Shown: positions 9,600 to 21,688 of the stretch, one piece after another
How positions within the stretch are numbered: position 1 is the first letter of the stretch
How the letters are laid out: each line of letters opens with the position of its first letter
Assembly: GCA_013388545.1 (NCBI GenBank)
Contig: JACAFB010000008.1
Location: 1-64,000 of the forward strand
Length of the DNA stretch: 64,000 nucleotides
From: Ignavibacteriaceae bacterium
Lineage (GTDB): Bacteria > Bacteroidota > Ignavibacteria > Ignavibacteriales > Ignavibacteriaceae
Reading direction: 5' to 3'
Notes under the pieces: model-generated
Databases searched by the model: none
Seen by the model: only the letters and a program-made list of their open reading frames with translations
Told to the model about the DNA's origin: nothing
Translations under genes and position numbers: made by a program

Positions 9600-11072
9600 T
9601 TATTCCTTTAATGCAGGTAATGTAAAATAAAAAACCGTTCCTTTACCCTTTACACTTTCTACCCCGATCTTCCCGCCTTGTCTTTCAATAAGATCTTTGC
9701 AAAGAACCAATCCAAGTCCTGTTCCGCGTTCATTTTCAGTACCCGGAAGCGAAAAGCCCGAATCGACTTTAAAGAGCTTGCTCATTTCAGTTTCATCCAT
9801 TCCAACACCAGTATCACGAACAAATATTTTAACAAAATCATTCTCTTCTGATACGTCAATTGTAATTGTTCCTCCCTGCGGAGTGAATTTAATTGCATTC
9901 GAAATCAGATTGCGAATTACAGTATAGGTCATACGGTCATCTGCATTTATCAGAATACTGGTGTTTGTTGGATAAATAAGCGTGATGTTTTTGTATTTAA
10001 GATTTTGCTGGTAGAGTAGTGATAAGTCGTGAAATAATGATCGTAAATAAATTTTAACAGGCTCAAATTTAATTCTTCCCGTTTGAATACGCGACCATTC
10101 AAGCAGGTTTTCTGTTAAATTGAAAAGGCTTCTCGCTGATTTGTTTGCTTCTGTAATCATATCCAGCATCTCACGATCGTTCATCTCATGAAAGTCCTCT
10201 TCAAGTATCTCAGTAATTCCGATTAAACCCGACAAAGGACTTCTGATATCGTGAGCAATTATCGAAAAGAATTTATCCCTTGTTTTTATGCTTTCGGAAA
10301 GTTCCTTGTTAAGGAATGTTACCCGTTCCTGATTTTCTTTTTGCTCAGTAATATCTGTACCTGTTCCGATAAACCCAACAAAGCTGCCCTCAGGTGTCAT
10401 CCTGGGAATTCCACGAAGAAGAATCCAATGAAATTCATTATTGCGGTTCTTCAACCTGATTTCTTTTGAGAAAATTTTGCGGCTTTCAAAACAGGAATAA
10501 TAATCTTTGATCAGGCTGTCCATATCATCCTGGTGAACATTTCTCAGCCAGTTCATGCCAAGTTCATCACCGATTTCTGAGCCTGTAAAATTAAGCCAGA
10601 CCTTGTTTACAAAACTGAAAAGCCCGTCAATATCTGCAATCCAAATCATTACTGGTGCGTTATTAGCCAGATTCTGAAATCTTGCTTCACTTTCTTTGAG
10701 CAATTCTTCTTTTATTTTGTTCTGTGTGAAATCAACTATGCTGATTAAAATTGAGAGTTTGTCTGCCTCTTTAATGAGCTTGCCCTGTATTTTTGCCCAG
10801 AAGCTTTTACCTTCGCGGCAGGTGATTTTAGTTTCCAGATTAATATCTAAGCTTTTCGTGATCAAATCATTTATCAAATGCTTTAAGTTGTTTTCGGCAG
10901 CATTATCAAGAAAATTATAGATGGAATAGGAATAAATTTCCTGCTTCGCACAGCAAAGCATTCCAAGGGCATGGATGTTCGACTTTTTAATATTGCCCTG
11001 CAGGTCAATCAAAAGGATTCCTACAGGAAGGTTGTCGAGCAGATTTAATTCTTTTTGTGAAGTATCGAGCAT
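9600..11072 (-). CDS. soluble PAS-domain sensor histidine kinase
   Basis: Cytoplasmic two-component kinase with no membrane segment. In order: a first PAS-like domain (about residues 10-120, GILLIDLQGNI), a second PAS/PAC (about 130-250, ending GTGTDITEQKE), a HisKA dimerisation helix with the phospho-acceptor in FFSIIAHDIRSPLSG, and a HATPase domain with an N-box (NLISNAIKFTPQGG), a G1 box (DTGVGMD) and a G2 box (GTGLGLVLCKDLI). The ATG ending at 11072 was chosen; a TTG 21 bases upstream is possible. No response regulator lies beside it, so it is an orphan whose partner is elsewhere. It is divergent from lipoprotein A1 across a 417-base gap. The signal sensed is unknown. Confidence 0.92.
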   Translation of the reverse strand: MLDTSQKELNLLDNLPVGILLIDLQGNIKKSNIHALGMLCCAKQEIYSYSIYNFLDNAAENNLKHLINDLITKSLDINLETKITCREGKSFWAKIQGKLIKEADKLSILISIVDFTQNKIKEELLKESEARFQNLANNAPVMIWIADIDGLFSFVNKVWLNFTGSEIGDELGMNWLRNVHQDDMDSLIKDYYSCFESRKIFSKEIRLKNRNNEFHWILLRGIPRMTPEGSFVGFIGTGTDITEQKENQERVTFLNKELSESIKTRDKFFSIIAHDIRSPLSGLIGITEILEEDFHEMNDREMLDMITEANKSARSLFNLTENLLEWSRIQTGRIKFEPVKIYLRSLFHDLSLLYQQNLKYKNITLIYPTNTSILINADDRMTYTVIRNLISNAIKFTPQGGTITIDVSEENDFVKIFVRDTGVGMDETEMSKLFKVDSGFSLPGTENERGTGLGLVLCKDLIERQGGKIGVESVKGKGTVFYFTLPALKE

Positions 11073-11489
11073 CTCTTTTTCTTCAATTAACAATCTTTAT
11101 CAATAGTTTTTACAAGCAATTTATCTGCCAGAATTATAAAAAATATAAAGCTCGATTTTCATTCATTTTAAGATACTTTACTAAGTTTCTATCTGAACTA
11201 CGGAAAAAATTCACTGTATTTAACGGATGCTTTGCGTTGAATAAGGCGTGTATCAAATAGTGTTTTTTTTCGTTACATATTCTCAAAAGAAAGCATCTGA
11301 ATATTTTCCTATCCCTAAAAAAGTTGAAAATTTGCCTAAAAATGAAATAAAAATGTATAAAGAGAATGGCAAGCTTTTAGAGTAAAGATATCAGGTTCTT
11401 TGACGCATTGTAAGTTCTTTCTCTTAAAGATAGAGTGATGTTAGGCTTAAATTATTTCAATTTTTAATCACTTAATCTTAGGAGACAAA
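11073..11489. promoter_or_regulatory. 417-base divergent intergenic region with possible structured leader
   Basis: No convincing gene; short frames here lack initiation signals. It must hold promoters for the minus-strand kinase and the plus-strand lipoprotein A1. On the plus strand GCCTAA (11334-11339) can pair with TTAGGC (11441-11446), and inside that AAGAGAA (11360-11366) with TTCTCTT (11419-11425), giving a nested two-helix leader ahead of the A1 ribosome-binding site (TTAGGAGA at 11478-11485). No known riboswitch class was matched with confidence. Confidence 0.4.
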
Positions 11490-12059
11490 ATGCGAATCAT
11501 ACACTTAATCCTTCTACTGACTGCATTCATAGCTTTCAGCTGTATGGATTCGTCTGTAAATAATCAGATTGCGGACGAAAATGACTACCAGCTTCTTAAA
11601 CTTCCTGCTAAATCCGAATTATCTGCTGAAACTGAATTTTCAGTAACTAAAAATATTAATGGTGATGAAGGCGGTTCAATTATCCTGAATAATGCTTACA
11701 AGAATGCTCAAGGAAAATGGGTAGTCATAGCGGCATATTTATATGTTCCGGCCGGTGCATTTAGTGGCTCGGAAAATATTACATTAAAAGTTGATGATGA
11801 CTTTGCAGCAGTAAGTTGCTCCCCGGGCATGGTTTTTAATAAATCTCTTGAGTTAAGTTTAACTTTTACCGGTCTTAATTTACTTGAAATGGGCATAAAT
11901 AATCAGAATGCAGATTTTGCATATATCAGCAATGATGGCTCATTAGAGTATTTAGAGTACAGCAATTTAACTGTAAATACGAATTTGGGTAAAATTTCTG
12001 TTAAAGATGCTAAACTGAATCATTTTTCAAGATTTGGCTTTATTAAAAAGCACGAATAA
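11490..12059 (+). CDS. lipoprotein A1 of the duplicated cassette (ZU5-like)
   Basis: 189-residue predicted lipoprotein (MRIIHLILLLTAFIAFSC, Cys18 at the lipobox) preceded by a strong AGGAG. The mature part is one beta-rich domain with GGSIILN, a VPAGAFSG turn, a VDDDFAAV strand, FNKSLELSLTFTGL, and a C-terminal HFSRFGFIKK tail. The pattern of GG, strand, PxGAFS and late HFSRxG resembles bacterial ZU5-like lipoprotein domains; that assignment is inference from motif order. It is the first gene of cassette copy 1, followed by lipoprotein B1 and two TPR genes, and is a clear paralogue of the protein at 17355-17927, sharing PxGAFS, the DD(E/D)xAAV strand and the HFSRFGFIKK end. Function unknown; the outer-membrane or periplasmic site is inferred from the lipobox. 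Confidence 0.8.
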   Translation: MRIIHLILLLTAFIAFSCMDSSVNNQIADENDYQLLKLPAKSELSAETEFSVTKNINGDEGGSIILNNAYKNAQGKWVVIAAYLYVPAGAFSGSENITLKVDDDFAAVSCSPGMVFNKSLELSLTFTGLNLLEMGINNQNADFAYISNDGSLEYLEYSNLTVNTNLGKISVKDAKLNHFSRFGFIKKHE

Positions 12060-12127
12060 TGAACTCATCTAAATTAAATCCAAGAAAAACAATGGGAACT
12101 AAAGAATTAAAAACAAAAGGTTATAAA

Positions 12128-12697
12128 ATGAAAAACTTAATATTGCTTCCTCTTTTACTAGGTCTGTTTCTTTTCGGTTGTAGTCAGGAGGCTGAGATTC
12201 AGTCCCCGACTGACCCGGGAAGTCAGAACTTTAAGTGGATAGGTCTTCCGTCTCATTCAGTTGCCTCAACTGAAATGGAAGTAACTCAGTCCCAGGATAT
12301 AAATGGTTCAAACGGCGGTACTTTGAATCTTAATTACTCATATGCCGGTGGTCCATTTGGAACAGTAAGTGTTACCTCTACCTTGCAATTTGTTCCTGGT
12401 GCATTTTCAGGAACTAAAACTATAACTGAAACCGTAGATGATTCATACTGCTATGTCAGCTTCGGTCCATCAATGAGTTTCAATTCACCTGCAATTTATA
12501 ACATTACTTATACAGGTATTGATTTATCCGGAGTAAATCCGAATACAGTAGAGTTTGTCTATGCCGCACCGGATGGTTCAACTCAGGTAATTCCAAATGA
12601 TGGAATTTCAATTGACCTGAATACCGGAACATTAACAGTATTAAATGCGAGGTTATCTCATTTTTCAAGATATGGCTTTATCAATAAAACGAATTAA
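12128..12697 (+). CDS. lipoprotein B1 of the duplicated cassette (ZU5-like)
   Basis: About 189-residue lipoprotein. The ATG at 12128 gives a clean lipoprotein signal (MKNLILLPLLLGLFLFGC) and follows AAAAGG; an in-frame ATG at 12059, overlapping the A1 stop, would add a charged leader that would spoil the signal. The mature domain has GGTLNLNYSYAGGPFG, FVPGAFSGTKTITETVDD, SFGPSMSFNSPAIYNI and the C-terminal ARLSHFSRYGFIN. It shares its fold signature with lipoprotein A1 and is strikingly similar to B2 (17985-18545), much closer than A1 is to A2, so B is the more constrained member. A single Cys (CYV, conserved in B2) lies mid-domain. No catalytic residues are visible; binding or structural roles are possible. 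Confidence 0.82.
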   Translation: MKNLILLPLLLGLFLFGCSQEAEIQSPTDPGSQNFKWIGLPSHSVASTEMEVTQSQDINGSNGGTLNLNYSYAGGPFGTVSVTSTLQFVPGAFSGTKTITETVDDSYCYVSFGPSMSFNSPAIYNITYTGIDLSGVNPNTVEFVYAAPDGSTQVIPNDGISIDLNTGTLTVLNARLSHFSRYGFINKTN

Positions 12698-12756
12698 CCT
12701 GAAATCAATAAACTGAAAATGTTAAGAGATAAATAACAAAGTGTCCCGGGAAAAAA

Positions 12757-13998
12757 ATGGAAATGATTAAAAGAAATTTCGAAAACGACCTTCAGCAGAT
12801 TCTGCAAAACTATCTGAGAAAGGAAGAAATTTCAGAGCTTAATGGAAAGCTGAAAGTTTTCGGCGAAAATGGCAGAGACTTTAATAATAAGGTGAGCGAA
12901 ATTTATAAAAGGCAGCTTGATCTCGATCTGTATGACTTTAGTGAACGGATTCAGATTGACCGGACCATTACCTATTCACAAAAGAGCTTATCGCCCGAAG
13001 ACTTTAGCAGTCTTTTAATCAACCTGGGAAAACTTTGTATCTCTCACGGAAGACTAAACCTTGCTCACGAAGTTTTAACCAAGGCACGAAGATTTTCAAT
13101 TGCAGCCACACTTAAAGCTGAATCTCTGCTTGCTCTATCCGATGTTTATAGCCGGCGTGCAAAATGGGAAGAAAGCATCTCCGTTTTACGTAATGCTCGT
13201 ATTATTTACCGAAATGCAAATGATAGAACCGGGATTGCCAGATGTGATAATCTTATGGGTACAATCTATGGCGATCAGGGGGATTTTAATAGAGCAAAAA
13301 GATGTTTTCAATCAAGCCTTTCACGCCTGATGAAAAATGAGAATCCGGAGTTAGTTGCTACTTTGGAAAATAATCTTGGCATCGTTGAGATGATGCTTGG
13401 AGAAAAAGAAAATGCAGTTGATCACTTTAAGCGTGCACTTGAGTTATTTGATGAAATTCGGGAATTAAGGCGAGTTGCTGAAATAAAGTATAATATCGGT
13501 TTGTTGTATTATGAAATGCAGCAATTTAAATCGGCAATCATTTCGTTTGATGAAAGCATAGAGCTGTGCCTCAATGCACATTTTATTCCTACACTCTGCT
13601 TATCATACCTGGCAAAGGCAAATGTATTGGTAACCCTGTCTGAATTCAGCAACGCCCGTGAATTTGCAGATAAAGCTCTCGAGGTAAGTCATCATCTTGA
13701 TGATAAGCTTACAATTGCAGATATCTACAGGATAAAAGGAACAATTGAAAGAAATCTAAAGAATTATAATTCAGCAGAGAACTATTTGCTTACCAGCCAT
13801 AGGATAAATGTAAACCTGAAAAATGAGTTGAATATTGCTGAATCATCATTCGAACTAGCTAAACTTTATGCTGAGATTGGAAAACAAGAATTAAAAGAAA
13901 TTTATTTGCGTGGTTCGATTAATTATTACAAACAAATAAATTCTACTGAAAGGGTAAAATTAGTTGAAGAGTTTTTTGGGGTAGAAAAAGTTTATTAA
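12757..13998 (+). CDS. TPR repeat protein T1 of the duplicated cassette
   Basis: 413-residue protein without signal peptide or membrane segment, so probably cytoplasmic. An N-terminal helical region of about 85 residues (RQLDLDLYDF, IQIDRTITYSQ) is followed by tandem tetratricopeptide repeats from about residue 85 to 395, with typical signatures such as GTIYGDQGDFNRAKRCFQ, NIGLLYYEMQQFKSAI and IKGTIERNLKNYNSAENY. It is homologous end to end to T3 (18580-19833) and more distantly to T2 (14023-15240). TPR arrays bind peptides or partner proteins. It lies 59 bases after lipoprotein B1; a cytoplasmic scaffold encoded with two exported lipoproteins is unusual. Not a named family. Confidence 0.85.
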   Translation: MEMIKRNFENDLQQILQNYLRKEEISELNGKLKVFGENGRDFNNKVSEIYKRQLDLDLYDFSERIQIDRTITYSQKSLSPEDFSSLLINLGKLCISHGRLNLAHEVLTKARRFSIAATLKAESLLALSDVYSRRAKWEESISVLRNARIIYRNANDRTGIARCDNLMGTIYGDQGDFNRAKRCFQSSLSRLMKNENPELVATLENNLGIVEMMLGEKENAVDHFKRALELFDEIRELRRVAEIKYNIGLLYYEMQQFKSAIISFDESIELCLNAHFIPTLCLSYLAKANVLVTLSEFSNAREFADKALEVSHHLDDKLTIADIYRIKGTIERNLKNYNSAENYLLTSHRINVNLKNELNIAESSFELAKLYAEIGKQELKEIYLRGSINYYKQINSTERVKLVEEFFGVEKVY

Positions 13999-14022
13999 CG
14001 AATATTTTTTCTGAGGTCAAAA

Positions 14023-15240
14023 ATGAAAAACGAAAACAACAAAATGTTTGAAGAAATTAAAAAGTTACTTGAGAAACAACTGGGAAGCGATGATACAATG
14101 GAATTCTGCAAAGTGCTTATTGCCCAGGGCAGCCTTGTATCGGATGCAGAATTTAGCGAAAATGACAAAAAGCAAATCCAGTTTGTTATTCCCGCCGGAG
14201 CCGATTTGCGAATATTGGTTGATAAAATAATTACTCTCTTAAAACAAATTCTTCCGGCTGAAAAATATTTCAAACTACTCCTTGATTTTTCAGATCTGAT
14301 GATCTATTACGGTCAGCTTGATTATGCAGCGCAGATTGTTGAAGAATTGATTGACAAGGTTAAATACAATACTCTTCATCTATCCTTAACTGCAGAAGCT
14401 TACCTGCTTATGTCAAAAATATGGTGGTCTCAGGCAAACTGGGAAGAAAGTCTGTATTATGTTCACAAAGCAGAAAGAATGTTCAGGCTGTTAAAAGATA
14501 CTGCCGGGTCTGCAAGATGCGAGAATATGCTCGGAACTATATACGGCGAAAAAGGAGAAATGGACAAAGCATTGAAGCATTTTGAAGCCGCCTCTTCAAT
14601 TCTTAATGATAACGGCGAAATTGCTACAAATGCAGCAATTGAATCTAACCTCGGTGTGATCTACACCATTCTTGGTGATTTCGACAAAGCAATTTGGAAT
14701 TATAAGAACGCAAAAGAAAAATTTGAAAAGCTGAATGATCTTAGAAAACTTGCCCGCATCAAGCATAATCTTGGAATGATGTATACAAGAATGGAAGACT
14801 TTGAATCTGCTCTTGATGAATTTAACGGCTGTATCACTATTTCCATAGATAAGGGTTATCTTTCAAACTGTGCAATATCCTATATCTCAAAAGCTTACAT
14901 CTACACGAAGTTGAATAATCCTGCTCTAGCAGATGCATTTACTGATAAAGCTATGGAAATTGCTTGCAGAATAAACGATAAGCTTACAGTTGCAGATGTT
15001 TATAAAATTAAAGGAATGATCTTTAATAATCTTCAAAACTTTGAGCTCTCTGAGGAATTCTTTGAAAACAGTTTAAGATTGAACAAGGATTTTGAAAACC
15101 AGTTAAATGAGGCTGAAGTTTCTATTGAGCTGGCAAAAACTCTACAATTAAAAAATCGCCAGGAAGAAGCAGAAGCTTATGTTAATTCAGCTAATAATTA
15201 TTTTAAGAATATTAAATACAATTCCAGTTCAGATAAATAA
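14023..15240 (+). CDS. TPR repeat protein T2
   Basis: 405-residue soluble TPR protein, a diverged paralogue of T1 and T3. The N-terminal 90 residues have little resemblance to T1, but the repeat region keeps the same order and spacing: ANWEESLYYVHKAER, GTIYGEKGEMDKALKHF, NLGVIYTILGDFDKAI, HNLGMMYTRMEDFESAL, and IKGMIFNNLQNFELSEEFF. It starts 24 bases after T1 behind TTTTTTCTGAGG. There is no T2 counterpart in cassette copy 2, so it arose by an additional tandem duplication in copy 1 or was lost from copy 2. No signal peptide. Likely a protein-protein interaction scaffold; partner unknown. Confidence 0.83.
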   Translation: MKNENNKMFEEIKKLLEKQLGSDDTMEFCKVLIAQGSLVSDAEFSENDKKQIQFVIPAGADLRILVDKIITLLKQILPAEKYFKLLLDFSDLMIYYGQLDYAAQIVEELIDKVKYNTLHLSLTAEAYLLMSKIWWSQANWEESLYYVHKAERMFRLLKDTAGSARCENMLGTIYGEKGEMDKALKHFEAASSILNDNGEIATNAAIESNLGVIYTILGDFDKAIWNYKNAKEKFEKLNDLRKLARIKHNLGMMYTRMEDFESALDEFNGCITISIDKGYLSNCAISYISKAYIYTKLNNPALADAFTDKAMEIACRINDKLTVADVYKIKGMIFNNLQNFELSEEFFENSLRLNKDFENQLNEAEVSIELAKTLQLKNRQEEAEAYVNSANNYFKNIKYNSSSDK

Positions 15241-15373
15241 TATTAATCTTTATCTGGATATGAATTTTTAATAACTGGGGATTTCTGATTTTTAGCTCTT
15301 TTTCAAGTTTTTGTTTTAGGTTTTACTGGAAATTTTGATTTAAATTAGCATCGCTTTTCTAAAATTCTAAAGC

Positions 15374-17098
15374 GTGCTGATTATCAGAATAAAAAAAATA
15401 TTACCGCTGATTTTCCTTTGGGTTTTGATATCCTGCTCATCTCTTTTTTCCCAATCTGTATTGAAAAGTTTTCATCCTCTTTCAGGTAAATTTGCTGTTT
15501 CGCTCGAAGGAGGATTATCTTTTTCCCGGACCGATTTTCGAATATCCAAATTTGACTCGCTTGCTAAACTATCGTTTGAATATTATTTCCCGACTTACAA
15601 TCCTGGTGCTTTTGGTATTCATTTGTTTGGTGGAGTTGGGGATCTTTCCGGCGAAGGAGGTGCAAGCCTTCAGTATTTATTTGTGAAAAATTTTAATTCT
15701 GTAATCAGGTTTGCCGGTGCAGGTTTATCTTATAATTATCGGCTCTCCCGAATTTTCATTCCTTTCATTTCTCTTGGTGCTTCATACATTAAGTTTTATC
15801 CAAGAGACTATAGTGGAAACGAATTACCGGGCTTAGCTACCGGAAGATATAAAACCCATTCGGCATTGTATTCCGGTGAAATAGGCATTAAATATTTATT
15901 CGATCCCGCTTTATCTCTTAATCTGAGCTTTGGATTAAATTATTCGGGCTCAGATAATCTTGACGACATGCCTGATGAATTCACAGGAGACAGAGGGAAT
16001 GATTTTTTCTACAGCTCGATGCTTGGAATTTCACTTCTTATAAATGGTGTATCAGATATTGATGACGATGGTATTCCCGATGAAATAGATCTTTGTGATA
16101 ACACCCCGGTTGGAATTAATGTTGATGAATTTGGCTGTCCGATTGACTCTGACAAAGACGGAGTAGCTGATTACGTTGATAAATGCCCGGGAACATCCAT
16201 TGGGACTTATGTTGATCCCGTTGGCTGCCCGATTGATTCAGATAAAGACGGTGTGGCAGATGATATTGATCTCTGCGAAAATACTCCACAAGGAGTAAAG
16301 GTTAATCTAAATGGCTGTCCGTTGGATTCAGATTACGACGGCGTTGCCGACTATCTTGATAAATGCCCTGATACCGGGAAAAACGTACTGGTTGATAATT
16401 ACGGATGTCCCGTTGAAAAGGAAGAAGAAAAAATTAGTAGCCGTTCGGAAATTTTCATATTTGATATCCTGAATTTTGAGACTGGCAGTGCAAATCTTAC
16501 TGAATCAGCAATTAAACATCTCGATAAGATAATCCGCATTATGAAAGATTATCCGGCTACTCGCTGGCTTATCGAAGGTCATACTGATAATTTGGGAGGA
16601 TACAATTTTAATAAAGAGCTCTCTAATGAAAGGACAGCTTCTGTAGTTGATTATCTGCTGCAGAGCGGAGTTGAAAGCGGAAGACTAGTCGTAGCAGGAA
16701 TGGGAGAAGAGTTCCCGCTTTATCCAAATGAAACAAGCACAGGCAAATCAATAAATCGAAGAGTTACGATAGAGCTTCTCGATGAATCCATTACACCGGA
16801 GGAGCTAAAAAAGGAAATAACCGAAGTGATAAATGAAATCCAGGGAGGCGAAATAGAAGTTCAACCGCTGATTTTCTTTGATGGAGCGAATTACACTTTT
16901 CAAATATCATCGTGGAAAAGTAAATATAAAGCACTCTCTGAGGTCCGAAAATATATTCAGAACGGATTTAACGCATTCATTTCCGAAGCAGAAGTGCCAT
17001 TAAAAGGAGGCAAATGGTTCAGAGTTCGCATTGGATATTTTGACTCTGCAGGCGAAGCTGCTGAATACAGAGCAAGATTCTTTTCTCAATCAAACTAA
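15374..17098 (+). CDS. OmpA-like outer-membrane protein with TSP3 repeats and a SPOR domain
   Basis: 574-residue envelope protein. A signal peptide (about 1-27, ending FSQS) is followed by a beta-barrel-like region (about 30-220), then calcium-binding thrombospondin type 3 repeats (about 228-347; DIDDDGIPDEIDLC, DSDKDGVADYVDKC and similar), an OmpA C-terminal peptidoglycan-binding domain (about 368-475, with EGHTDNLG and the NERTASVV Arg), and a C-terminal SPOR-like domain (about 505-570, YTFQISSWKSK to RVRIGYFDS). OmpA domains bind diaminopimelate in murein and SPOR domains bind denuded glycan strands, so both C-terminal modules face peptidoglycan. The start is GTG at 15374. It lies 133 bases after T2 and before cassette copy 2. 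Confidence 0.88.
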   Translation: MLIIRIKKILPLIFLWVLISCSSLFSQSVLKSFHPLSGKFAVSLEGGLSFSRTDFRISKFDSLAKLSFEYYFPTYNPGAFGIHLFGGVGDLSGEGGASLQYLFVKNFNSVIRFAGAGLSYNYRLSRIFIPFISLGASYIKFYPRDYSGNELPGLATGRYKTHSALYSGEIGIKYLFDPALSLNLSFGLNYSGSDNLDDMPDEFTGDRGNDFFYSSMLGISLLINGVSDIDDDGIPDEIDLCDNTPVGINVDEFGCPIDSDKDGVADYVDKCPGTSIGTYVDPVGCPIDSDKDGVADDIDLCENTPQGVKVNLNGCPLDSDYDGVADYLDKCPDTGKNVLVDNYGCPVEKEEEKISSRSEIFIFDILNFETGSANLTESAIKHLDKIIRIMKDYPATRWLIEGHTDNLGGYNFNKELSNERTASVVDYLLQSGVESGRLVVAGMGEEFPLYPNETSTGKSINRRVTIELLDESITPEELKKEITEVINEIQGGEIEVQPLIFFDGANYTFQISSWKSKYKALSEVRKYIQNGFNAFISEAEVPLKGGKWFRVRIGYFDSAGEAAEYRARFFSQSN

Positions 17099-17120
17099 TC
17101 ATTAATAAAAAATCTGTTTC

Positions 17121-17141
17121 AATCAGAATCACTTTCTGATT
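17121..17141 (+). repeat. inverted repeat downstream of the OmpA-SPOR gene
   Basis: AATCAGAA (17121-17128) pairs with TTCTGATT (17134-17141) across a 5-base loop. There is no T-run, so it is a weak terminator candidate or an mRNA-stabilising hairpin. TATCAGA is repeated twice just downstream. Confidence 0.45.
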
Positions 17142-17261
17142 ATCAGACATTATCAGAATAATCCTTTAAATAAAATCTTTCTATTCGGAAAAAAATTAGG
17201 GGATTTTTTCGGTTCCTTTTTGGCATTATTTTAAATAAATAATCTGAAATATTGAACGTGT

Positions 17262-17345
17262 CAGGCAGAAAGCCTGGCAAAGAGTAGTTGTGATGCTATA
17301 GCAAAAACTATTTCAAAGATAAATTACTAAGTATCGCGAAACTCT
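17262..17345 (+). promoter_or_regulatory. possible structured leader before lipoprotein A2
   Basis: The 5' flank of A2 contains a perfect CAGGC/GCCTG hairpin (17262-17266 with 17272-17276), a TAGTT/AACTA helix (17285-17289 with 17306-17310), and AGAG (17281-17284) able to close on CTCT (17342-17345), which ends 9 bases before the ATG. The last pairing would lie over the ribosome-binding region, and no good Shine-Dalgarno is otherwise visible. It does not match a riboswitch class known to me; the assignment is inference. Confidence 0.35.
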
Positions 17346-17354
17346 GGGTTCAAA

Positions 17355-17927
17355 ATGAATAAATTTATTTTCTTATTTCTCTTACTTGGGCTTTTACTTT
17401 TTGGTTGTACACAAAATGAACAGCCGGTAATATCACCTCAGGATCAGTCAACTTATTCCCTAATTCAATTACCCCTTTCAGATAATTTTACCTTAGAGCA
17501 GTTGGTCAGCTTGGTTAAAAATATCGATGGATCTGTTGGAGGTATTATTAATGTTTCGCATAGCTACATAGATCTATCCGGAAACCTCGTTACAATGAAT
17601 GCTGAACTAAGAATTCCATCTGGTGCTTTCAGTGATTCAATTAATATCCTGATGCAGATTGATGATGAATATGCAGCTGTACATTTTGAACCTGCAATGA
17701 CTTTTAACAAAGCTCTGGAATTTGACTTAGAATTCACCGGACTAGATGTGGCTGGAATGGGATTGACGAGCGGAAACGTCGATTTTGTTTTTATAGATGA
17801 CAGTGGCAACATTGAGTTGATTGATAAAAATGCGATTCACGTTATAAAATCACAAGGTATGCTTTCAGTCAAGTCAGCCCGGATTCCGCATTTTTCAAGA
17901 TTTGGATTTATAAAGAAATCGAAGTAA
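17355..17927 (+). CDS. lipoprotein A2 of the duplicated cassette (ZU5-like)
   Basis: 190-residue lipoprotein (MNKFIFLFLLLGLLLFGC, Cys18). The mature beta-rich domain repeats the A1 pattern: VKNIDGSVGGIINV, IPSGAFSDSINILMQIDDEYAAV, FNKALEFDLEFTGLDV and a terminal HFSRFGFIKKSK. It is the first gene of cassette copy 2 and is followed by B2 (57 bases) and T3 (34 bases). Compared with A1, the framework and last 12 residues are conserved while the N-terminal half differs, as expected of an old duplication. The fold assignment (ZU5-like) is by motif order only. Function unknown. Confidence 0.8.
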   Translation: MNKFIFLFLLLGLLLFGCTQNEQPVISPQDQSTYSLIQLPLSDNFTLEQLVSLVKNIDGSVGGIINVSHSYIDLSGNLVTMNAELRIPSGAFSDSINILMQIDDEYAAVHFEPAMTFNKALEFDLEFTGLDVAGMGLTSGNVDFVFIDDSGNIELIDKNAIHVIKSQGMLSVKSARIPHFSRFGFIKKSK

Positions 17928-17984
17928 TAAATTTTTAATTAATTAAGTATATCTAATACTCTATCAAAATAAAAGGAACAAAAA

Positions 17985-18545
17985 ATGAAAAAGATATTTT
18001 TCTTCCCGGTACTTTTAGGTCTCATTATGTTCGGATGTGGACAGGAAACCGAAATTCAGTCTCCCGATGGGTCCGGAAATCGGAATCATAAATGGATTGG
18101 GCTTCCCTCACGCGCTTCGGCTTCGACAGAGATGGAAGTAACCCAATCGCAGGTTATTAGCGGTGCAAACGGCGGTACTCTTAACCTCAATTACACATAT
18201 TCAGGCGGACCTTTTGGAACTGTTGAAGTTACCTCGTCACTGGTTTTTCTTCCCGGCTCCTTTTCTGGAAATAAAACCATAACAGAAACAGTAGATGATG
18301 AATTTTGCTATGTAAATTTCGGCCCTGCAATGAATTTCAATTCACCGGCAATATATAATATTGAGTATAAAGGCGTTGATTTAACCGGAGTAGATCCAAA
18401 CACGGTTCAGTTTGTTTATGCTGCATCAGACGGTTCGATTCAGGTTATACCTAATGATGGAATTACTATTAACTTTAACACAGGAACACTAAAAGTTCTT
18501 AATGCGAGATTATCTCATTTTTCAAGGTATGGATTTATTAATTAA
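17985..18545 (+). CDS. lipoprotein B2 of the duplicated cassette (ZU5-like)
   Basis: 186-residue lipoprotein (MKKIFFFPVLLGLIMFGC). Nearly the whole mature chain aligns with B1 without gaps: GGTLNLNYTYSGGPFG, GSFSGNKTITETVDD, CYVNFGPAMNFNSPAIYNI, VIPNDGI, and ARLSHFSRYGFIN at the very end. An AAAAGGAAC ribosome-binding site precedes the ATG. The much closer B1/B2 similarity than A1/A2 suggests either recent gene conversion or strong constraint on B. Located between A2 and T3 in the same order as copy 1. No enzymatic motif is visible. Confidence 0.82.
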   Translation: MKKIFFFPVLLGLIMFGCGQETEIQSPDGSGNRNHKWIGLPSRASASTEMEVTQSQVISGANGGTLNLNYTYSGGPFGTVEVTSSLVFLPGSFSGNKTITETVDDEFCYVNFGPAMNFNSPAIYNIEYKGVDLTGVDPNTVQFVYAASDGSIQVIPNDGITINFNTGTLKVLNARLSHFSRYGFIN

Positions 18546-18579
18546 ATGAATTTATTAACCTTAAATTATTGGGATAACA

Positions 18580-19833
18580 ATGGAGTACATATACAATAAT
18601 TTTGCAGTCGATCTCCAGGAACTCCTGATGAAATATCTGAGTGCGCCTGAAATGTCATCATTGCTTTCAAAAGTTAGCTTGATGGATAAAACCGAAAAAG
18701 ATGAAAGGTTAAATCTTAAAGAAATATACAGGCAGCAGCTCGATATAGAATTCGGGAACTTTAACGAAAGAATTCAACTCGACAGGACAGTAACTTATAC
18801 CCAAAAAAATCTTTCCCCTGAAAAATTTTCCAAAATGCTAATCAATCTTGGAAAGCTTTGCATTTCTCACGGAAAATTAAGCATTGCCCACGAGCTATTA
18901 AACAAAGCAAACAGAAACAATGGAAATAAAGCTACTAAAGCTGAAACATTGCTTGCTATGGCTGATTTATATGCACGAAAAGCGAATTGGGATAGCAGCA
19001 TTATAGCTGTCAGAAAAGCTCGCTTTATTTATTCTGCGTTAAAAGACTCAAATGGCATTGCTAAATGTGAAAACATAATCGGAACTATTTATGGTGATCA
19101 GGGCGAATTCCATGAAGCGAAAGCCTGTTTTGAGAAGTCGCTTTCAATATTAAATCCCTCGGATGATCCCGAACTTATTGCATCAATCCGGGCAAACCTC
19201 GGCGTAATTGAAGTTATTTTAGGTAATAAAGACAAAGCCATAAACTATCTTAACAATGCAATCGATAACTTTAAGTTAACCGGTAATTACAAGCGAATTG
19301 CTGAATTGAAACATAACATCGGTCTGCTTCATTATGAGTTGACTGATTACGAATCAGCATCGAAGTCATACGATGAGTGTATCGATATAGCATTAAAGAA
19401 TAGTTTTATTCCTGTTCTTTGTCTGGCTTATCTGGGTAAAGCAAACTTATTTGTTTCAAGCAGCGAGTATCTTGCTGCTGAAATTTATGCCGATAAAGCG
19501 CTCGAGCTTAGTCATTATCTTGACGACAAATTAACAATTGCTGATATATATAAAACAAAAGGAATAATTGAAAGAAATCTTAAGAATTTTACTAATGCTG
19601 AAAATTATCTGCTTTCAAGCTTAAGATTAAATAACGAATTGAAAAATGATCTTAATATTGCTGAAACTTCATTTGAATTAGCTGTGCTATACGATGAAAT
19701 TGAAAGACCCGATCAAAAAGAAGAGCATCTTAAAGATTCCCTTAATTATTATGCAAGGATGCAATCTGCAGACAGAATCAGGAAGATTGAAGAAATTTTC
19801 AGCATTAATAGAGCATATTCTTCAGCATCATAA
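18580..19833 (+). CDS. TPR repeat protein T3 of the duplicated cassette
   Basis: 417-residue soluble TPR protein, the counterpart of T1. The N-terminal region shares IYRQQLDIEFGNF, ERIQLDRTVTYTQKNLSPE and LINLGKLCISHGKLSIAHELL with T1. The repeats follow in the same register (GTIYGDQGEFHEAKACFE, NIGLLHYELTDYESAS, TKGIIERNLKNFTNAENYLL). Starts 34 bases after B2. It is the last gene of copy 2; a strong terminator follows at 19943. No signal peptide, so cytoplasmic by prediction. TPR function (protein binding) is known for the fold; its partner is unknown. Confidence 0.85.
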   Translation: MEYIYNNFAVDLQELLMKYLSAPEMSSLLSKVSLMDKTEKDERLNLKEIYRQQLDIEFGNFNERIQLDRTVTYTQKNLSPEKFSKMLINLGKLCISHGKLSIAHELLNKANRNNGNKATKAETLLAMADLYARKANWDSSIIAVRKARFIYSALKDSNGIAKCENIIGTIYGDQGEFHEAKACFEKSLSILNPSDDPELIASIRANLGVIEVILGNKDKAINYLNNAIDNFKLTGNYKRIAELKHNIGLLHYELTDYESASKSYDECIDIALKNSFIPVLCLAYLGKANLFVSSSEYLAAEIYADKALELSHYLDDKLTIADIYKTKGIIERNLKNFTNAENYLLSSLRLNNELKNDLNIAETSFELAVLYDEIERPDQKEEHLKDSLNYYARMQSADRIRKIEEIFSINRAYSSAS

Positions 19834-20005: not shown

Positions 20006-21688
20006 ATGATTTACTCCGCAAAAAAAATCACCATCAATTTTATAATCGTTTCAATTATTGCCAGCGTTTTTTCAGTCCTGCAATTCAATTGTGAAAGAAG
20101 CGAAAAACCTGAAGCTAACAGAATAATTGTTGGAGCAGTTGCTGATGTTCAAACAATAAATCCTGCTTTTTCATTCTCAATACTCGAGGGAAATCTTGTT
20201 GAACTGCTCTTTTATAAACTGATTGATAATCGCTGGAATGCCGAAAAAGGCCTTATTGAGTTTATTCCAATGATTGCAGAAAAATGGGAATGGAACGGTG
20301 ATTCAAGCCAGGTGACATTTTATTTGAGAAATGATGCTTTCTGGTCTGACGGGAAACCAATTACTGCTGAAGATGTCGTGTTCACTTTTGATGTTTATTC
20401 TGACCCTGTAGTTCAAAGCAGATTTTATGGTGAGTTTGATATTCTCGAGACCGGAAAAGATCTTCACATTAATTCAGAAAAAAGTTTTGAAATTATTTCT
20501 CCGCACGTTCTTAAAGTAAAACTTAAAAAAGATGTTGTCCCAACTCTCCTTGGACTTGATGTTCCGCTTATTCCTAAACATATCTGGAGTAAATATGATC
20601 GTAAAGAAATTGCAAATGCCAAAGAGAATTTTGAACCTGTAACAGGAGGGGCATTCAAGTTGGTAAAATGGGAAAGAGAATCAGGCATTTATCTTAAAGC
20701 TGATACAAGCTCATTTTTATTTAAGCCGGGAAGTATTGAAGATCTCATCATAAAAGTTATACCTGATTATCAGTCGCGTATCACTCAGTTGAAAAAAGGT
20801 GAGATAGACATCGTTGATGGAATTAAAAGCGAGGATGCAAAAGAGCTTGAAGAAATGGATAATTTAAATATTTTCTCTCTTGGCGGAAGAGAGTACGATT
20901 ACATAGGCTGGAATCACATAGATCCGCTTCAGTTTACTGCAAATAAAAAGCAGTTACCTAATAAACTTTTTTCTTCACCTAAGGTCAGAAAAGCATTAAC
21001 GATGTCGGTAAACAGGAAGGAGATTCTGCAATCATACATAGGAAAGTATGGACAGATTGCAAGAGGACCGGTTTCTCCGTTATTTAAAGTTTATTATGAT
21101 TCAAACCTTCCGCTAGACGAATACAATCCCGAAAAAGCCCGTGCACTGCTTAAAGAAGAAGGATGGTTTGATCAGGATAACGACGGTATAATCGAAAAAG
21201 CAAACACTAAGTTTAGTTTTACGCTTTACACTAATTCGGGTAATCCTCGAAGGGAATATACTGCAACTATTATCAAGAATAATCTCAAGTCTGTCGGAAT
21301 CGAAGTAAAAATCGAATTGCTTGAAACCGGTGCATTCATTGATCGGCTGTTAGCCCGCGAATTTGATGCCTGGTTATCAGGCTGGACAATTCCTATTCCG
21401 GCAAACTTAAATCCATACTGGAATTCAGACCAGGAAGAGGGAATATTTAATTTCTCGAGCTATTCAAACAGCTCGGTTGACAGCATACTTAAAAAACTTG
21501 AGACAAAGATTACAGAAGAGAAAAAAGCAGAACTATATAAAATCCTTCAATCAATCTTTTACAAAGATGAACCGGTTACATTTCTCTTTTGGGTTGATAA
21601 TATAATTGCTTCCAATAAAAAAATTGAGAACGTAGAGTTCACACCATTAGGATATCTGGCTAAAGCCTGGAAATGGAAGGTCCTTTGA
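20006..21688 (+). CDS. oligopeptide/dipeptide-binding lipoprotein, SBP family 5
   Basis: 560-residue extracellular solute-binding protein of the OppA/DppA family. A long N-terminal hydrophobic segment ends in VLQFNC, a lipobox-like site. The mature chain opens IIVGAVADVQTINPAFS, typical of family 5, and has WSDGKPITAEDVVFTFDVY and KVRKALTMSVNRKEIL, both family hallmarks. It probably binds peptides for an ABC importer, but no permease or ATPase genes are nearby. Flanked by terminators on both sides (19943 and 21708), so it is a monocistronic unit. Ligand identity (peptide, nickel or other) cannot be decided from the sequence. Confidence 0.9.
   Translation: MIYSAKKITINFIIVSIIASVFSVLQFNCERSEKPEANRIIVGAVADVQTINPAFSFSILEGNLVELLFYKLIDNRWNAEKGLIEFIPMIAEKWEWNGDSSQVTFYLRNDAFWSDGKPITAEDVVFTFDVYSDPVVQSRFYGEFDILETGKDLHINSEKSFEIISPHVLKVKLKKDVVPTLLGLDVPLIPKHIWSKYDRKEIANAKENFEPVTGGAFKLVKWERESGIYLKADTSSFLFKPGSIEDLIIKVIPDYQSRITQLKKGEIDIVDGIKSEDAKELEEMDNLNIFSLGGREYDYIGWNHIDPLQFTANKKQLPNKLFSSPKVRKALTMSVNRKEILQSYIGKYGQIARGPVSPLFKVYYDSNLPLDEYNPEKARALLKEEGWFDQDNDGIIEKANTKFSFTLYTNSGNPRREYTATIIKNNLKSVGIEVKIELLETGAFIDRLLAREFDAWLSGWTIPIPANLNPYWNSDQEEGIFNFSSYSNSSVDSILKKLETKITEEKKAELYKILQSIFYKDEPVTFLFWVDNIIASNKKIENVEFTPLGYLAKAWKWKVL

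Follow-up and report, generated by a model that had tools for sequence, protein, structure and literature searches.

Duplicated lipoprotein and TPR protein cassettes of an Ignavibacteriaceae bacterium as candidate signal/receptor pairs of an RRNPP-like peptide circuit

In the enterococcal pheromones of the cCF10 type, the N-terminal signal sequence of a lipoprotein precursor supplies the peptide. RRNPPA systems, which comprise Rap-Phr and its relatives, have been described from Firmicutes (PMC9765709, PMC10075063), and their genes have been reported in Firmicutes only (PMC9765709). Propeptides with tandem copies are known among them (PMC11343458). Here we analyse a stretch of 64,000 nucleotides, the window, from an Ignavibacteriaceae bacterium (GenBank assembly GCA_013388545.1, contig JACAFB010000008.1, positions 1 to 64,000 of the forward strand). 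Between positions 11,490 and 19,833 it carries a cassette of two lipoprotein genes (A and B) and a gene for a tetratricopeptide repeat (TPR) protein in two copies. Our data indicate that these cassettes are probably signal/receptor pairs of a Gram-negative RRNPP-like circuit, in which a secreted heptapeptide would be imported by an oligopeptide (Opp) transporter and read by a cytosolic TPR receptor connected with kinases and sigma54. The circuit is based on gene content, operon structure, co-occurrence, the species-specific identity of the heptapeptide and the enrichment of sigma54-like sites in relatives, from which we infer processing, import, binding and regulation.

The likeness to RRNPP(A) systems would lie in a short secreted peptide cut from a precursor, Opp import, a cytosolic TPR protein and two-component control, and in paralogous signal/receptor pairs that multiply within one genome. 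The host, however, belongs to the Gram-negative Ignavibacteria. RRNPPA systems have an adjacent small secreted propeptide (10-100 aa), whereas here there are lipoproteins of about 190 aa and a secreted repeat protein, PRO, which is 160-325 aa long across genomes and often not adjacent to the TPR gene. The receptor lacks specific sequence kinship to Rap, and a sigma54 activator, a Ser/Thr kinase and a peptidase-like protein are encoded in the same operon. We speak of RRNPP-like working, which is inferred, and do not claim RRNPP membership. The cCF10-type pheromones are also lipoprotein-derived, but here the peptide would come from the C-terminal tail. A sigma54 activator and histidine kinases in the operon, and TGGCAY-N5-TTG upstream of genes of the system, resemble NtrC-type sigma54 regulation, which here is linked to peptide import and to a Ser/Thr kinase that also has AAA and TPR parts. 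A literature search, largely outside subscription papers, found no description of peptide signalling in Ignavibacteria or of this gene set elsewhere.

The order A-B-TPR, noticed twice in the initial annotation of the window, was recovered as A1-B1-T1 and A2-B2-T2, with open reading frames (ORFs) where that annotation had placed them. Its third TPR paralogue after the first copy is T1b, which is 33% identical to T1. The alignment of members from end to end between the copies was also borne out, with identities of 40% for A1/A2, 75% for B1/B2 and 52% for T1/T2; A and B, rightly described as related, share 32-37%. Against shuffled sequences, these A, B and TPR pairs reached z-scores of 35-123. 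Because the end-to-end identities far exceed those of shuffles, A and B are paralogues of one family. A signal peptide and a lipobox Cys are present in each of the four lipoproteins, and each closes with HF-S-R-[FY]-G-F-I-[KN], in some cases followed by further residues. What chiefly sets A and B apart is the peptide at their tails, SRFGFIK in A and SRYGFIN in B.

The heptapeptide of A is the repeat unit of PRO, which is encoded on another contig (C75) of the same genome, in an operon, with a sigma54 activator on one side of it and an exported HExxH protein on the other. This PRO is 255-266 aa long, has an N-terminus like a signal peptide and contains twelve units of 16 residues of the form ...QLDELG-SRFGF[IV]K. 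In the whole genome (2.9 Mb) SRFGF[IV]K can be encoded at 14 sites, 12 of them in PRO and one each in the A1 and A2 tails. A control with the reversed pattern had 0 sites. In one of the 59 genomes of relatives with which we compared the locus (G-numbers), G030, SRYIFAK has 16 coding sites in PRO, one at each of two tails of the lipoprotein family (LIP) and none elsewhere. The serine codons differ between LIP and PRO (TCA/TCC and AGC/AGT, respectively). The identity is therefore at the peptide level, which counts against recent copying of DNA.

LIPs diverge to 25-40% identity, yet nearly all of them close with HF-S-R-[YF]-G-[FW]-x-[KRN], and most stop exactly 7 residues past HF. Position 2 of the heptapeptide is Arg in 58 of 61 tails and position 4 is Gly in 52 of 61. 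The PRO heptapeptides of relatives include SRFGWVR, SKYGWVR, SRYIFAK, SRYGWAT, SRYAFSR, SRYGFLR, SVYGYSK, ARYGFTR, SRYGFTR, GRFGWTK, TRYIFVR and SRWGWGK. In further families of the order and class, PRO has the heptapeptides SRYGFVR and SAYIFGR and similar kinds of neighbours; PRO-like matches in G198 and G341 were rejected as they lack the operon. The spacer xxQLxxLG is conserved, the 16-residue period is regular, and like boundaries flank the unit in every repeat. PRO is under-counted because assemblies often break inside its repeats. Among the 13 genomes with both LIP and PRO, the best distances between tails and the genome's own PRO sum to 9, compared with a permuted mean of 35.3; seven matches are exact, and none of 100,000 permutations was as good (p<1e-5). 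For LIP pairs that are less than 60% identical and have K/R/T/Q-ending tails, the tail difference was 0.76 within and 2.94 between genomes (p=2e-4). The likeness within a genome spans separate clades of the LIP tree, for example in G029.

There are two types of tail. Those ending in K or R match the peptide of the genome's own PRO, as in A1 and A2, and those of the form SRYGF[VIL]N, as in B1 and B2, vary little between genomes. N-ending SRYGF/SRFGF tails co-occur with TPR proteins near T1/T2 in G000, G012, G028, G047 and G048. G029 probably also has an N-ending tail together with a T1-like TPR protein, the gene being truncated by the contig end. This co-occurrence hints at two possible ligand-receptor pairs. 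The genome of the window has a fifth LIP, on contig C68, with no HFS and the tail PYSRFGFIR. It is not beside a TPR gene and sits between large secreted proteins that share a C-terminal sorting-like domain.

The pairing of lipoprotein and TPR genes recurs in relatives. LIP is present in 25 of the 59 genomes and the specific TPR family in 29, almost the same genomes (cut-off for TPR E<1e-40, with the best of the remaining genomes at just 1e-20). Most LIPs adjoin a TPR gene, singly or as LIP-LIP-TPR(-TPR), and all 25 loci from named genomes belong to Ignavibacteria, Ignavibacteriaceae, Melioribacteraceae or unspecified Bacteroidetes/bacterium assemblies. LIP or PRO was found in 29/29 genomes with the TPR family and in 0/30 others (p=2e-17), a count that leaves out LIP matches in G009 and G024, which were set aside as weak, partial and inside longer or other ORFs. 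Four TPR genomes have no LIP, and all four have PRO. In LIP-less genomes a profile search for LIP gave only partial matches beginning at the signal peptide, so LIP seems truly absent from them. Solo TPR genes without LIP (L106-L109, L113, L115) have another conserved neighbourhood, with ABC transporter genes and a membrane protein of about 200 aa, and several of them have a sigma54-like site. Phr-like short ORFs were looked for beside these genes and none was convincing; the repeat precursor encoded elsewhere replaced this idea.

The operon around these genes has a recurrent order. DppF-DppD are divergent from SBP-DppB-DppC, in which SBP is the oligopeptide-binding protein, and these are followed by a Ser/Thr kinase, a sigma54 activator, PRO or LIP, in some cases a metallopeptidase-like protein, TPR and histidine kinases. 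The Ser/Thr kinase (about 1190 aa) has AAA and TPR parts, the sigma54 activator has a Fis-type helix-turn-helix (HTH), and one histidine kinase has a GAF domain and one a PAS domain with a receiver domain. SBP_bac_5 is present in 29/29 TPR genomes and in 2/30 others (Fisher 8e-15), usually in one copy per genome. Within the family of the window's own genome the counts are 21/21 and 0/16. In 16 of the 29 genomes the distance from SBP to a LIP or TPR gene is no more than 10 kb. C75 encodes DppF, DppD, DppB, DppC, the kinase, the activator, PRO, the peptidase-like protein, a TPR protein and two kinases, with no SBP, and the only SBP found in this genome (83% complete) is the one behind T2. A second SBP may lie in the part that the assembly lacks. 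The window cassettes are therefore tied to the C75 operon, and the window SBP is likely the partner of the C75 Dpp permease and ATPases, judging by gene content. In the exported protein beside PRO, HELVH is conserved in each of the 14 copies examined, and no Pfam peptidase family matched this protein.

The sigma54-type -24/-12 motif TGGCAY-N5-TTG is located within 150 bp upstream of 19/44 LIP genes and 7/32 TPR genes, counting genes with an upstream gap, as compared with 3/269 other genes (p=1e-15 for LIP and 8e-6 for TPR). A looser sigma54-like form precedes 10 of 15 PRO genes, a count in which the PRO gene of the window's genome appears twice; this PRO has the site TGGCACGTTCATTGCG. The sigma54 argument rests on the relatives, because the number of sites across the window is no more than expected by chance.

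The TPR proteins have 405-417 aa and no signal peptide, which agrees with the cytosolic RRNPPA receptors, proteins of 250-500 aa built of TPR repeats. In line with the initial annotation, Pfam and NCBIfam searches with all nine proteins left the lipoproteins unassigned; they gave the TPR proteins only a generic match (TPR_12, 1e-27 to 4e-29). The T1 model is a TPR superhelix, a series of helix pairs with a mean pLDDT of 89. Its N-terminus, where RRNPPA receptors have an HTH or a three-helix bundle, has short helices (8-16, 22-32 and 48-54), partly of low confidence, and matches no HTH family. Fold matches of T1 in the PDB are the peptide-binding TPR proteins LGN, APPBP2 and pheromone-bound Rap (TMt 0.63-0.72). 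LGN ranks first by E-value, and Rap is above LGN by TM-score. The TPR protein is not classed as an RRNPPA member because sequence profiles do not single out Rap. According to PDB titles, Phi3T Rap binds SRGHTS-type pheromones; the common S-R start is a mere curiosity.

Several ZU5, GPS/GAIN and Nup98 domains cut themselves at HF/S (the slash marks the cut). H, F and S of this motif are each at least 90% conserved in LIPs, with one natural HFC. The LIP profile matched the bacterial Pfam-ZU5-positive protein L169 in hhalign with E=4e-6 and a probability of 87%, and the alignment reached HFS; the best of 30 shuffles had a probability of at most 1.7%. The second ZU5 domain, L168, was not matched, and only three ZU5 domains were found in the phylum. 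The A2 model is a confident beta-sandwich (mean pLDDT 90) with a chain break at F180-S181 between the last two strands, and the heptapeptide motif is the last strand (residues 182-187). The best PDB match in a fold search with LIP was an entry for CD97, an adhesion G protein-coupled receptor (GPCR), and was weak (E=0.026, TMq 0.29); when PDB sequences were searched with the lipoprotein profile, most matches were to signal peptides, and the result was discarded. ZU5, GPS/GAIN and Nup98 have been grouped as autoproteolytic domains (PMC3482391). PIDD and adhesion GPCRs are examples of proteins with domains of this superfamily. LIPs resemble these domains in the beta-sandwich and in HFS just before the last strand, and differ in that LIPs have no Pfam or NCBIfam assignment, with no Pfam ZU5 match in 59 members, and in that a few members lack HFS. 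In G012 (L063, L097) four such LIPs end with GG-ARYGFTR, and the units of its own PRO read LG-ARYGFTR, which suggests an ordinary protease there. It is plausible, from profile and motif comparison, that LIPs are distant ZU5-like domains carrying the HF/S autoproteolysis motif, and likewise plausible that autoproteolysis could free their own tail.

A putative signaling pathway can be drawn from these data. PRO, with its 12 SRFGF[I/V]K copies, would be the secreted precursor; A1 and A2 contain one more copy each, and B1/B2 contain the related SRYGFIN. An exported protease, possibly the neighbouring HExxH protein, might cut the heptapeptide out of PRO, and its release from the lipoproteins might be due to a protease or to ZU5-type autoproteolysis at HF/S. 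The free peptide would be imported by the oligopeptide ABC transporter formed by the SBP behind T2 and DppBCDF and may bind cytosolic T1, T1b and T2. The peptide-bound TPR proteins might then modulate the GAF/PAS histidine kinases, the Ser/Thr kinase and the sigma54 activator of the core operon, and these in turn may act on the sigma54-type promoters of the PRO, lipoprotein and TPR genes. A more specific version makes LIP a membrane-anchored pheromone donor, which would cleave itself at HF/S, keep the last strand and later release it as the heptapeptide for import and reading by the adjacent TPR protein. This version is tentative, and we regard it as possible rather than probable.

Several points count against the proposed circuit. 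The evidence for it consists of sequence and model comparison. No convincing sigma54-like site belongs to the LIP cassettes of the window. In G003 PRO and tail do not match (SVYGYSK versus SRYTWAK), and some LIP tails extend 2-21 residues past the heptapeptide. PRO was not found in 12 TPR genomes, all of which have LIPs, contigs often breaking in the repeats. When the TPR profile is run against the PDB, the sequences of kinesin light chain and LGN (1e-18) outscore that of RapF (6e-14), and TPR proteins like LGN and kinesin light chain bind many things.

The heptapeptide might instead be a species-specific motif for docking or assembly at the cell surface. PRO would then be structural, a fibre or amyloid-like, the lipoproteins would be anchors exchanging or stacking strands, and TPR would be an operon regulator. 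The position of the heptapeptide as last strand of the lipoprotein model and the regular period and conserved spacer of PRO agree with this. It leaves unexplained both the pairing of a cytosolic TPR protein with lipoproteins and the near-perfect co-occurrence and linkage with a usually single-copy oligopeptide importer, and the same kinds of boundary around every PRO unit are what excised peptides would show. We therefore consider docking unlikely. An envelope complex in which a soluble TPR protein serves as scaffold for two exported lipoproteins, the interpretation offered in the initial annotation, would account for the conserved gene order and pairing, and the recurrent pairing itself stands. 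The scaffold part is probably wrong, and we give such a complex very little chance. The inner membrane separates the lipoproteins from the TPR protein, some genomes with PRO have TPR but no lipoprotein, and the consistent partners of TPR are Opp/Dpp import, histidine kinases, the Ser/Thr kinase and the sigma54 activator. A peptide-signalling circuit better explains these partners, and also why the lipoproteins end in the very peptide that a secreted precursor carries in many copies.

Tandem core repeats are also expected of a multi-core ribosomally synthesized and post-translationally modified peptide (RiPP), with PRO as precursor of a modified, exported natural product and the lipoproteins giving immunity or presenting the core. 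The RiPP-associated HaaT model also picks up the TPR proteins, with a weak score (6e-12) that falls well short of its cut-off. The operon has no conserved modifying enzyme, the PRO N-terminus is signal-peptide-like and core copies are also found at lipoprotein C-termini, and a RiPP seems about as improbable as the envelope complex. Opp systems are often nutritional, and the operon could serve uptake of peptides as nutrients with its regulators, LIP and PRO being unrelated passengers. Both the species-specific identity of tails and PRO heptapeptides and the co-occurrence in 29/29 and 0/30 genomes contradict unrelated passengers, which makes this the least credible explanation.

The coordinates of the features are listed in Table 1. 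The histidine kinase gene divergent from A1 is possibly a regulon member. The OmpA/TSP3/SPOR protein between the cassettes is not a recurrent neighbour in relatives and is probably a passenger.

Table 1. Features of the window, and of related loci where a locus or contig is named
Feature	Position	Strand	Remarks
Lipoprotein A1	11490-12059	+	Signal peptide and lipobox Cys; putative ZU5-like beta-sandwich; C-terminus HF-SRFGFIKKHE
Heptapeptide SRFGFIK, A1 tail	12027-12047	+	TCA AGA TTT GGC TTT ATT AAA; genome-wide encoding search
Lipoprotein B1	12128-12697	+	ORF open from 12059; start very likely 12128, because the first ATG of the ORF puts 23 residues ahead of the signal peptide; C-terminus HF-SRYGFINKTN, N-type tail
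Heptapeptide SRYGFIN, B1 tail	12665-12685	+	Position derived from ORF end
TPR protein T1 (413 aa)	12757-13998	+	Cytosolic, putative peptide receptor; ORF, Pfam, model
TPR protein T1b (405 aa)	14023-15240	+	Extra paralogue; own clade; homologues in 4 other genomes
Lipoprotein A2	17355-17927	+	C-terminus HF-SRFGFIKKSK; structure model made
Heptapeptide SRFGFIK, A2 tail	17895-17915	+	Genome-wide encoding search
Lipoprotein B2	17985-18545	+	C-terminus HF-SRYGFIN
Heptapeptide SRYGFIN, B2 tail	18522-18542	+	Position derived from ORF end
TPR protein T2	18580-19833	+	Cytosolic, T1 paralogue; ORF, alignment, tree
Oligopeptide-binding protein (SBP)	20006-21688	+	Directly behind T2; Pfam SBP_bac_5 1.3e-75
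PAS-PAS histidine kinase	9600-11093	-	Divergent from A1; possible regulon member; Pfam
Sigma54-like -24/-12 site TGGCAGATAAATTGCT	11115-11130	-	21 bp before kinase start; near-perfect; motif scan
OmpA/TSP3/SPOR outer-membrane protein	15374-17098	+	Between the two cassettes
PRO, secreted repeat protein	L011:13882-14682; own contig C75:41879-42681	- (L011)	Twelve 16-residue units
Exported HELVH protein (~1217 aa)	L011:10059-13712	-	Next to PRO; candidate processing protease
Ser/Thr kinase-AAA-TPR protein (~1190 aa)	L072:11138-14719 and relatives	-	Between Opp permease genes and sigma54 activator
Fifth LIP of the genome, contig C68	L012:9761-10447	+	

Quorum sensing by imported peptides with TPR receptors is regarded as a trait of Firmicutes, and a circuit in Ignavibacteria that looks complete, if true, would extend it across a major divide. 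Ignavibacteria are a widespread environmental Gram-negative group for which we found no described cell-cell signalling. From the circuit follows the precise peptide that each genome should use as its signal (SRFGFIK, SRYIFAK, SRYGWAT and others), so that synthetic peptides would allow a direct test. A new source of pheromones is suggested as well, the C-terminal strand of a surface lipoprotein. If the lipoprotein is indeed the donor, bacterial quorum sensing in a Gram-negative phylum would follow a tethered-agonist-like logic, similar to that of adhesion GPCRs.

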